Shown here piece by piece: positions 57,560 to 62,040 of a stretch of DNA of 64,000 bases (position 1 is its first letter; each line of letters starts with the position of its first letter). Position numbers and translations under genes: made by a program. Source of the stretch: Microvirga sp. (GTDB lineage Bacteria > Pseudomonadota > Alphaproteobacteria > Rhizobiales > Beijerinckiaceae); NCBI GenBank assembly GCA_029266525.1, contig JAQSWQ010000030.1, positions 1 to 64,000 on the forward strand, written 5' to 3'. Under the pieces are notes generated by a model that was not told the DNA's origin, ran no database searches, and saw nothing but the letters and a program-made list of their open reading frames with translations.

Positions 57560-57894
57560 GACGACCTCATCGACGCGCGACCGCGCGCCGCCCCAGGGCC
57601 GCGGCCATAGCAAGGCCAAGCCAGGGTGTCAGCCCTCCTCCTCCTCCTCTCTCCCGGATGGGAGGGGGTATAGTGATAACGGTGTAAGCGAACCAGTCTT
57701 GACCAGGGTGAGCTGAGTTAAAGGTTGTCCGTGTCGTAGTCACGGGACAACTGAGGAAGCCCCTCCCGCGGGATCGGGAGCGCAGCGTCCCACGGATTTT
57801 CATGCTTCGAGGATGCCAGAACTCGTGGGCTGTAGCGGATCACAATCGCACACCTACGAAGGTCTGGGAAATCAGCCCGTTGGGATTATTGGGC

Positions 57895-58332
57895 CTATTG
57901 GGTGCGTTCTGGACGATCCTCTTGCACGTTTCGCACAGTCGGATCAGACGCCAACCGCTCCACCCCACGAGCGGTCAGTTCCATGACCACGTACGGTGTT
58001 CCCTCAATGGGCTGGATAACTGGGGCGTCGGGGCCGCGCAGGCGATCTATGAGCCGCTTTTTTGCGGTCTCGACCTGCGGACTCGTCTCATCCCCGTGCT
58101 CAGGAGGGGCTACACTGACGATCGCACGGACGCCGCCGTACTGAGCGGCGTTAGCCTTCAGAGTCTTTAGCTTGCTCTCAAGTGTGGCGCTCTTGGATGG
58201 TAGTGATTCAGTGGCCATAAGCTCCGCAATAAGGAAATGAGGAAATGCAAGGAAGATACCGCAGCATACGACGACGCACCATCCTCGCGCTCCCGTCGCG
58301 TGGCCCTCTCGATCTAGGCGGCCATACCACAT
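57895..58332 (-). CDS. Standalone protein resembling a subtilase propeptide (inhibitor I9-like)
   Basis: 145 aa; VRAIVSVAPP...AKKRLIDRLRGPDAPVIQPIEGTPYVVMELTARGVERLASDPTVRNVQEDRPE aligns with the propeptide of the adjacent subtilase. Confidence 0.6.
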   Translation of the reverse strand: MWYGRLDREGHATGARGWCVVVCCGIFLAFPHFLIAELMATESLPSKSATLESKLKTLKANAAQYGGVRAIVSVAPPEHGDETSPQVETAKKRLIDRLRGPDAPVIQPIEGTPYVVMELTARGVERLASDPTVRNVQEDRPERTQ

Positions 58333-58441
58333 GCTTTACAGCGTCCTTCGGGCTCAGCCATTGTTCGTTGAGGCCAAACCGGACCACCACCCCTTACACC
58401 CTTTGAGCCCCCGAAGAAAGGGAGCGTTTCAGAACGACCCT

Positions 58442-60870
58442 TTATCGCGCTCCGAGTGCAAAAAGTTGGTCCGCTGGTGACTTCAAGTCGTACCCACCAA
58501 TGCCGTTCCCCGGGTCACCTTGTGCGTAAACCGGCGCGAACTTACCGGATCCATCCTTCTTCAAAAGCCAAATCGTCCCCGTTCCCGGTCGATAAAGGCC
58601 GAGATGATCGAGCTTTCCATTGCCGTCATAGTCAAAAGCGAACACTCGATCGGCTGGCGACTTAAGATCGTATCCGCCAATGCCATTCCCCGGATCACCT
58701 TGCGCATAAACCGGCGCGAACTTTCCGGATCCATCTTTCTTAAGAATCCAGATGGTCCCCGTTCCCGGTCGATACAGAGCGAGATGATCAAGCTTCCCGC
58801 TGCTGTCATAGTCGAAAGCGAACGCACGGTCGGTTGGAGACTTCAGGTCATACCCACCGATGCCGCTTCCCGGATCTCCTTGCGCGTAAACCGGCGTGAA
58901 TTTGCCAGTGGGATCTTTCTTCAAAATCCAGATCGTGCCCGTTCCGGGCCGATACAGAGCGAGATGATCAAGCTTCCCGCTGCTGTCGTAGTCGAAAGCG
59001 AACGCTCGGTCGGCTGGAGACTTCAAGTCATACCCGCCGATACCGCTTCCCGGATCTCCTTGGGCATAGACCGGCGCGAACTTACCCGTCGGATCCTTTC
59101 TCAAAATCCAGATCGTGCCCGTTCCGGGCCGATACAGCGCGAGATGATCGAGCTTGCCGCTGCTGTTATAATCGAAGGCGAACGCTTGGTCCGCCGGTGA
59201 CTTTAGATCGTACCCGCCAACGCCGCTACCGGGATCACCTTGCGCGTAAACGGGTGTGAAATCCCCACACGCGTCATTTCTCAAGGTCCAGATGGTCCCG
59301 GTACCTGGCCGGTAGAACACTACGTGGTCCAGCTTCCCGCTGCTATCGTAGTCGAAAGCGAACGCTCGGTCGGCTGGGGACTTCAGGTCATACCCACCGA
59401 TACCGCTTCCCGGATCCCCTTGGGCGTAGACAGGCGTGAACTTACCGGCCCCGTCCTTCTTCAGGATCCAGATCGTGCCCGTGCCCGGCCGGTACAAAGC
59501 CATTTGCCTTGGTTCGCTGTGCCGCTGCTGGAGTTTTTCGAGCGCCGCCGCGACATCGATACGAGGCCGAGCAATGCCATTCGGTATGCGAGTGTCTACG
59601 ATACTTCGCCCGTTCCCTTTCAACGCGTTCTCAACATCGTCGACCGTGGAATTGGTGCAAACGGACCGAAGCGCTGTGATTGCACCGGCGACATGTGGAG
59701 TCGCCATGGACGTACCATTGAAGGGAGCGAACCCCCCGCCTGGAACCGATGAGTTAATACTGGAGCCCGGCGCCAAGAGATCAACCATTGATGCGCTGTT
59801 CGAAAACGACGAAAGGGAGTCAGTTTTCGTCGTCGCTCCGACCGTTACGGCTTCGGTAATGCAGCCGGGTGAGTTCACGGCGTTGGTGAAGCCGTCATTG
59901 CCCGACGCAATTACGGTTGCGATCCCCATCCCGCGCAGTGTCTGGATGATTGGACGGCGAGTATCGGCGGCGCACGGGTTTGTCTGCATGCCGCCGCCGA
60001 GGCTCATATTGGCAGCTGAGATCCCGCCTACGGGACCACGGGCGAGGTCTCGCACGTGTCCAAGCGCCCTGATTTGGTCCGATGGAAAGGTGAGGGTGCA
60101 CGGAGAGGCTTCACCCGCATTTGCGCAGGGCGTTGGCCCGCCTGCGCGATCGTCGAAGCGGCTAAATACCTGAACGGCAATAATGTTGGCGTCGGGAGCC
60201 ATCCCCGAAAAGTTCGCGCCGCGACCGGCGGCAATACCCGCTACATGTGTCCCGTGATTGCACCCGCTCACGCCGCACGGCGCCCCGCGCCAGGGCCAAC
60301 CTGTTGATTGCTCCCGTCGGGACACACGGTGGTCGAACCCTGGCTCGGCGAACTCGTCGAAAAGCAAGCTTCAGCCGTCACTCTTCCTGCCAAAAAAGGG
60401 TGGCTCGCATCGACGCCGGTGTCGAGAATGGCCACAGCCCTGCCAGCGCCGCGTGCACCTCTTGCCCATGCATCCGGCGCCCGAACAAGCGGGCCGCTTT
60501 GCGCTAGCACGGCCTTTTCAGGGATGTCCTCCTGGACTGCGGCGACATCGCCGCTTTCGATCAGCCGCTGCAATTCAGCGCTACTAACCTCCAAGACAAT
60601 GAACGGCATATCATGGATCGGCTCGACTCGTAGAGCGTTCGCGGCGAGCATACTCGCGGCGATGCGCGATTTCGCGGCGGCAGCTTCCGGCGTCTGAACG
60701 CCAGTGGCAGCTTGCGGCGCGCGCACAGCGGCGATGACTCTTATCAAGGGTTTGGTCGAGGCGGCAGCCCGAACCGCCGCAGCGCCTTGAACTTGGTCTT
60801 GAGCCTCTGCATTGGGTCCGGCCAGCAGCAAAACAAAGGCCGCAGCAAACGCTCCTAATGTTCGTGCCAT
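58442..60870 (-). pseudogene. S8 family subtilisin-like protease with C-terminal tandem repeats, frame-disrupted
   Basis: Catalytic motifs AVAILDTGVDASHP (frame 1), HGTHVAG and NGTSMATPHVAG (frame 2); break at CCCC 60283-60286. Confidence 0.85.
58445..59503 (-). repeat. Six tandem 60-aa (180-bp) repeats in the subtilase C-terminus
   Basis: Consensus LALYRPGTGTIWILKKDGSGKFAPVYAQGDPGSGIGGYDLKSPADRAFAFDYDSSGKLDH; five full copies plus 53 aa. Confidence 0.97.
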
Positions 60871-61215
60871 CGAACGCACTCCTCTTTGACCAGCTGAACC
60901 CGTTGCAGGAACCTCAAGTCCCGCACGCAAGCAGCACGCGTGCATACGATAAGAGTCCCATCCAAACCCGGCGTTGTCAAGCCAGGGTAGCTTGACTGTA
61001 GGTTTGCGGCCAGGAGCTATGACGCGGAGTGGCAGCTAACGTCCCAATACAGTGTCTACGACACGGTGCGGCGTGGGGCGGGAGCCCATTTAACGGCCCC
61101 TACATCACCCAGCAGTTTCCGTTGCACAGTGACGGGTGATGCCCTCTTTTTTCGTGGCGGCGCCCCCGCCGCCTTTGGGGGCCTGCTTGCGTGTTGCGCG
61201 AGGGCCCTGCCTCAC

Positions 61216-61241
61216 CCCACTCGGGCTTACGCCCGAGTGGG
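61216..61241. terminator. Hairpin, possible terminator
   Basis: CCCACTCGGGC-TTAC-GCCCGAGTGGG, 11-bp perfect arms; no T-run seen. Confidence 0.4.
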
Positions 61242-61465
61242 CTCTGTCCCGTTCGGGAGAGCGGGTGCGCCACCCCCCCCCCGGGAGTGCCCGGGCGAAG
61301 GTGCGGCAATGTCAAAGAGCGAAGCGGGGGGAGCAGGACGCCAGGGCCGGCTCGATATTTTTTGAACGCCAGGACACCTGGCGTCCCGCACGGCGATTTC
61401 TGTTCCAAGGCCTTCCTGGCCCGTAGGAGCGTGCTATCTCCAAAGGGCAACGCAGGCATGGGGTG

Positions 61466-61801
61466 TTACAGAATCGCCTCGACACCCTTTGCTTTCGCAA
61501 GCGAGAGGAGCTTGAGGGATGGTCCGCTCGGCCGCTTCTCGCCGCGCTCCCACTGGCTTACGAGCGACGTCCCAACATTGAGCGTGAGCGCGAAGATCGC
61601 TTGGCTCATATGGGCTTGCTCGCGGATGCTCTTAATGTCTTCCGGCTTGAGGTCCTCCACCGGGGTGAGACAAGCGGCGTCGAACCGGCGCATCGTGGCC
61701 TTGTCGACGGCGCCTGCCTTGTGCAGGCCCTGCATGGCCAGATGAGCGCTCCGCAGCGCCTCGCTCCGGTACGTCCGCCGCTTGCTCGTGCCCTGCTTCA
61801 T
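61466..61801 (-). CDS. HTH antitoxin (HigA/NadS-like, XRE type)
   Basis: MKQGTSKRRTYRSEAL...LKPEDIKSIREQAHMSQAIFALTLNVGTSLVSQWERGEKRPSGPSLKLLSLAKAKGVEAI; alternative start at 61822. Confidence 0.88.
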   Translation of the reverse strand: MKQGTSKRRTYRSEALRSAHLAMQGLHKAGAVDKATMRRFDAACLTPVEDLKPEDIKSIREQAHMSQAIFALTLNVGTSLVSQWERGEKRPSGPSLKLLSLAKAKGVEAIL

Positions 61802-61956
61802 GTTCCTGCGACCGGGATCCATTCCTTGGCTTCCACCAGCGCCGCGACCGTCCCCTCGGCGAGCGCCGCCACATGCTTCGCAAGCTCCCGATCATCTCCT
61901 CTTCGCCCGTTCCCGACGGGCAAGCCGCGCGAACCGCTCGTCTTGAATACCTGCAT
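61798..61956 (-). pseudogene. Degenerate RelE/HigB-like toxin remnant
   Basis: MQVFKT start; RFARLARRERAKRR in an adjacent frame; 52-aa remaining ORF overlaps the antitoxin start (ATGA). Confidence 0.6.
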
Positions 61957-61971
61957 CCCCTAGCCCCGAGC

Positions 61972-62000
61972 TGATCTATAGCACCGGGTGCTATAGATCA
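61972..62000. promoter_or_regulatory. Perfect palindrome, probable autoregulatory operator of the toxin-antitoxin module
   Basis: TGATCTATAGCACC-G-GGTGCTATAGATCA: 14-bp perfect arms, 1-bp centre. Confidence 0.7.
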
Positions 62001-62040
62001 AGACGAATGCCGGGTTTTTGTCGCGCACAGAACTCGGCCC

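Follow-up and report, generated by a model that had tools for sequence, protein, structure and literature searches.

What is a protein resembling a subtilisin propeptide doing as a separate gene product, directly behind the gene of a subtilisin-like protease that has such a propeptide of its own? The question is raised by a 64,000-nucleotide stretch of a Microvirga sp. assembly (GCA_029266525.1, contig JAQSWQ010000030.1, positions 1 to 64,000; hereafter the window), in which a small gene at 57895-58332 on the minus strand, with an ATG start codon, encodes a protein of 145 amino acids (aa) and starts 109 base pairs (bp) past the stop codon of a subtilase (S8) gene on the same strand. The small protein is homologous to S8 propeptides (the I9 type), and we suggest, with a probability of roughly two in three, that it is a stand-alone exported I9-type inhibitor dedicated to the upstream subtilase.

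A separate propeptide-like protein

The small protein consists of a hydrophobic, putative export segment (residues ~18-37), an I9 domain (~66-139) and the tail RPERTQ. A preliminary description of the locus had claimed homology to the propeptide of the neighbouring subtilase, and this is borne out: BLASTP aligns the small protein with the N-terminus of the subtilase at 30% identity over 77 aa (E-value 1e-7), and the propeptide of that subtilase is its only other significant match in the whole genome (E 8e-7). Direct sequence searches of the genome collection and of plasmids gave no homologue of the small protein, and profile searches were therefore adopted. To avoid circularity, a hidden Markov model (HMM) was trained on 16 propeptides taken from other subtilases; neither the standalones nor the subtilases of the window and G251 contributed to it. 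This model scores the small protein at 48.2 bits, compared with 13.2 bits for the best of 500 shuffles; the same model gives the neighbouring subtilase's own propeptide 35.0 bits, below the small protein. The VQED motif of the small protein is the motif of the neighbour's propeptide, and its C-terminus lies 6 residues past the Asp, such that this separate gene product, which has no catalytic domain, ends near the propeptide maturation site. The N-terminal hydrophobic segment ascribed to it earlier is also evident: the Kyte-Doolittle mean peaks at 2.33 in the 15-residue stretch that begins at residue 21.

At its curated cut-off the Pfam I9 model, PF05922, does not match the small protein, and the best score among its relatives is 14.5 bits against a cut-off of 21.2 bits. 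As the propeptide of the neighbouring protease also goes unrecognised, the Pfam model is too narrow for this group; it gives 27 matches across 284 Pseudomonadota genomes, every one of them in a frame of 380 aa or longer and none stand-alone. Pfam and NCBIfam scans of the small protein returned chance matches only, and a match to NCLDV P6 (E 0.013) was below the cut-off and dismissed.

An AlphaFold2 model, computed from a seven-sequence alignment, has a predicted local distance difference test (pLDDT) score mostly >90 and comprises helix 47-65, strand 68-74, helix 85-98, strands 105-108 and 114-119, helix 121-128 and strand 133-138; the predicted topology is that of an I9 propeptide. In a fold search of the PDB, pro-subtilisin E came out on top, with the propeptides of BPN' and Tk-subtilisin among the best matches. 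The E-values of these matches (~0.01-0.05) are modest, as expected for the common ferredoxin-like fold, and the sequence profile is therefore the stronger evidence. When PDB sequences were searched with a propeptide profile, the prosegments of BPN' and subtilisin E were recovered; a single-sequence search with the small protein was uninformative.

The gene pair in other genomes

A survey of similar pairs, which the preliminary description had proposed, found this arrangement of two genes again in a further six genomes, taken as Alpha- and Gammaproteobacteria. An I9-like small exported-looking protein is encoded directly 3' of an S8 gene, on the same strand, in at least six genomes besides this one, giving seven loci with the window; in all seven the protease comes first and the standalone second, and in the other six pairs the genes are separated by 13-42 bp or overlap. 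In most genomes the profile surveys scored the best 12 candidates, and the resulting counts are lower bounds.

The pair in G251, from the same order and another family, allows the closest comparison: a 131-aa exported-looking protein is encoded 42 bp 3' of a subtilase that is 46% identical to the window subtilase over the propeptide and the start of the catalytic domain. The standalones of the window and G251 match each other (E 2e-7), and that of G251 matches the propeptide of its own protease only at E 0.001. Because the G251 subtilase (L066 4274-7600) carries Tectonin repeats and its window homologue FG-GAP repeats, the sugar- or surface-binding part seems to have been exchanged while protease and standalone stayed together.

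The five remaining standalones are lipoprotein-like, with lipobox-like signals. Two come from another family of the same class: a 117-aa protein in G681, after a gap of 13 bp, and a 116-aa protein in G770, whose gene overlaps that of the subtilase by 4 bp. A third, in G524, is a 151-aa protein encoded 15 bp after the subtilase gene, and the model that detected it did not include the G524 protein. In G1092 and G1244, which belong to the same phylum, lie outside the class and may be Gammaproteobacteria, the proteins show the I9 pattern and are encoded by genes that begin before the subtilase gene has ended; the G1092 standalone is weak by profile (E 1.4), and that of G1244 was reached via the G1092 protein (E 1e-7). 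As the G524 and G1092 proteins were found by inspecting the surroundings of S8 genes, their proximity to a protease is partly by design. An unbiased whole-genome search of short frames, by comparison, found five standalones or types (G098, G251, G330/G376, G681 and G770), three of them directly 3' of an S8 gene.

All standalones that adjoin a protease stop 5-9 residues past the conserved acid, as does the G098 protein, which has no such neighbour; the tail of the G330 protein is longer. In a tree of I9 domains, the propeptides and standalones of G681/G770 branch in parallel, and so do those of G1092/G1244, a pattern that joint inheritance of the pairs would produce; this tree is poorly resolved, with too few columns to decide on a single origin of the standalones. 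In a tree of catalytic domains the window, G251 and G282 subtilases group weakly, and no I9-like gene lies 3' of the G282 subtilase. The standalones of G251, G681 and G1092 had no match among plasmids.

Three further candidates were rejected: the 197-aa frame of G306 (L070 4215-4808) is a subtilase cut by a contig end, the G452 candidate (L122) seems to be a subtilase gene whose frame is broken, and the hypothetical protein 3' of a Sinorhizobium subtilase (L027) is not I9-like. A 123-aa exported-looking protein encoded ~20 bp past a subtilase gene in G051, a genome of the same family (L030 7106-7477, plus strand), is not I9-like either and is possibly another kind of subtilase partner.

Function of the small protein and its known counterparts

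Homology, predicted fold, recurrent pairing, N-termini of the export type and a C-terminal end close to the maturation site together point to a dedicated inhibitor. The protease/antiprotease pair proposed in the preliminary description gains support from the fold and the recurrence, and the N-termini and C-terminus also agree with it. Subtilisin propeptides inhibit by packing on the protease, with acids capping helices (Glu69 and Asp71 in BPN') and the C-terminal tail leading to the active site (PMC6993865; PMC10580911). By analogy, the small protein would be exported to the compartment of the protease, anchored there as a lipoprotein in several relatives, and would dock on the protease as a cleaved propeptide does, with its C-terminal tail laid along the substrate-binding cleft. 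Stray or prematurely matured protease would then be kept inactive in the cell envelope, and an exported or lipoprotein location fits such a self-protecting inhibitor. On these sequence-based grounds the small protein may bind and inhibit the subtilase, may be specific for its neighbour and may serve in self-protection.

The lipoprotein-like character of five of the seven pair members would also suit a partner that retains the (pro)protease in the envelope or controls its secretion, holding or routing it without necessarily blocking the active site. Myxococcus offers a precedent: the secretion of its subtilisin-like protease PopC is inhibited by PopD, which binds PopC in a complex (PMC6434023). 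We consider this unlikely here, given that C-termini held to a length close to the maturation site are in keeping with docking at the active site, and that those stand-alone I9 proteins which have been characterised act as inhibitors or as regulators of activity (PMC6993865).

A further possibility, raised in the preliminary description alongside an inhibitor or immunity protein, is that of a trans-acting chaperone, a foldase that aids the folding of the periplasmic protease, a role that propeptides are able to play in trans, and inhibits it only secondarily. The order of the genes, protease and then helper, is compatible with this, and the propeptides of mesophilic bacterial subtilases are both chaperones and inhibitors (PMC10580911). 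However, all seven paired proteases retain an I9-like propeptide of their own, so that a second folding helper would not be needed, and the majority of subtilases in this group have no standalone downstream. A foldase is thus improbable, whereas the inhibitor or immunity option is favoured by fold and recurrence. That the small gene is a decaying remnant, a truncated and functionless duplicate of the subtilase gene, might be supposed from its frame-broken neighbour, its position in a lower-G+C insertion and the lack of a close orthologue, but it is very improbable: the frame is intact, has a putative export segment and terminates where a propeptide would be expected to end, no S8 catalytic-domain remnant was found beyond the stop codon, an identity of only ~30% to its own neighbour speaks against a recent copy, and the occurrence of the homologues as intact separate genes in the same arrangement in six other genomes largely refutes the truncated subtilase that had been named as the alternative at the outset.

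Several observations weigh against a dedicated inhibitor. A direct search of 149 relatives found no close orthologue of the window protein, whose putative export signal was recognised by eye and hydropathy only and lacks a lipobox. The last residues of the standalones are polar (Q, N, D, R), compared with a conserved Leu at the presumed cleavage site of the propeptides, which suggests that the standalones may occupy the S1 pocket differently from propeptides. As the paired protease is split by the frame break, the small protein may have no active target in this genome. Furthermore, G098 (L067 5702-6091, plus strand) and G330 (L068 5388-5822, minus strand) encode exported-looking I9-like proteins with no adjoining subtilase, and pairing is therefore frequent and not obligatory. 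Orphans of the second type adjoin pyruvate carboxylase, and the copy in G376 (L069 2253-2561, minus strand) is interrupted by a TAG codon.

The characterised stand-alone I9 proteins listed in PMC6993865 are all eukaryotic; Pleurotus POIA1, yeast PBI2, Arabidopsis SPI-1 and Toxoplasma MIC5 inhibit or regulate subtilases (PMC6993865). Like the window protein, these are small, separate products with the propeptide fold and no catalytic domain; unlike them, the type described here is bacterial, encoded directly 3' of the protease gene, often lipoprotein-like and negative for Pfam I9, and its inhibitory function is putative. In Plasmodium, the gene for the potent, selective inhibitor SUB1-ProM lies next to subtilase genes and has their orientation (PMC6993865). 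SUB1-ProM resembles the window protein in being stand-alone and propeptide-like, with a signal sequence that is putative in the latter, although it is eukaryotic, with no detectable orthology and no lipoprotein form. The propeptides of subtilisins BPN' and E are similar in fold, in the acidic motif ahead of the tail and in the length to the C-terminal end, but form the N-terminus of the precursor itself, whereas the window domain is a separate, putatively exported protein that exists besides the protease's own propeptide. We regard the standalone as a bacterial form of the stand-alone I9 protein, gene-paired with a subtilase. Pseudomonas AprI and Serratia Inh (MEROPS I38) are exported inhibitors encoded with a secreted metalloprotease, from which they protect the producer; this is an analogy of working only, since the fold is unrelated and the protease class different. 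PopC and PopD likewise offer a subtilisin-like protease restrained by a small partner, a likeness drawn from the described role of PopD only (PMC6434023).

No bacterial example of a stand-alone I9 protein was found in the open-access literature searched, which did not extend to subscription papers and MEROPS, and a bacterial case, described or undescribed, possibly exists elsewhere. The odds are about even that these loci represent an undescribed proteobacterial two-gene module, an exported subtilase with an exported or lipoprotein I9 immunity protein, partly spread horizontally and fitted with differing lectin-like repeats on the protease, FG-GAP in the window and Tectonin in G251. Protein inhibitors of peptidases have been described as relatively sparse in prokaryotes. 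An operon-like bacterial version with lipoprotein forms would, if true, provide a genetically tractable instance of a propeptide domain turned separate inhibitor, add a family overlooked by current domain models and provide selective natural subtilase inhibitors.

The neighbouring protease and its insertion

The subtilase gene is split into two overlapping frames on the minus strand, a point missing from the preliminary description. The N-terminal frame (60268-60945) encodes a putative signal peptide, the I9-like propeptide, with the motif VQEDIPEKAVL at 60505-60537, and the start of the S8 domain with the catalytic Asp (AILDTGVD, 60409-60432). The second frame (58442-60367) contains the S8 catalytic domain at 59618-60259, with the catalytic His (NHGTHVAG, 60236-60259), Asn (ASGNDGF, 59888-59908) and Ser (NGTSMATPH, 59693-59719), followed by C-terminal FG-GAP-like repeats (58442-59506) with a tandem unit of ~180 bp at 58468-59500. 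Judged against the homologue in G251, which is intact, the break lies at ~60283-60309, between the catalytic Asp and His, and the frames overlap at 60268-60367; it may reflect a pseudogene or an assembly error. Three other S8 matches are present in the genome. A scan for promoters and terminators found nothing.

Both genes lie within an insertion of ~4.4 kilobases (57620-62040) between argS and dgt, with a G+C content of 0.57-0.63 for the subtilase and small genes compared with 0.67 for argS, 0.71 for dgt and 0.71 for nagZ. In a genome of the same genus (G001) argS and dgt are ~50 bp apart, and dgt adjoins argS in G003, G004, G005, G090 and G091 as well. As both genes are low in G+C and share one insertion that is missing in relatives, they were probably acquired together. 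No toxin partner was recognised for a lone helix-turn-helix protein encoded in the same insertion (61466-61822, minus strand), which resembles antitoxins of the MqsA/HigA type.
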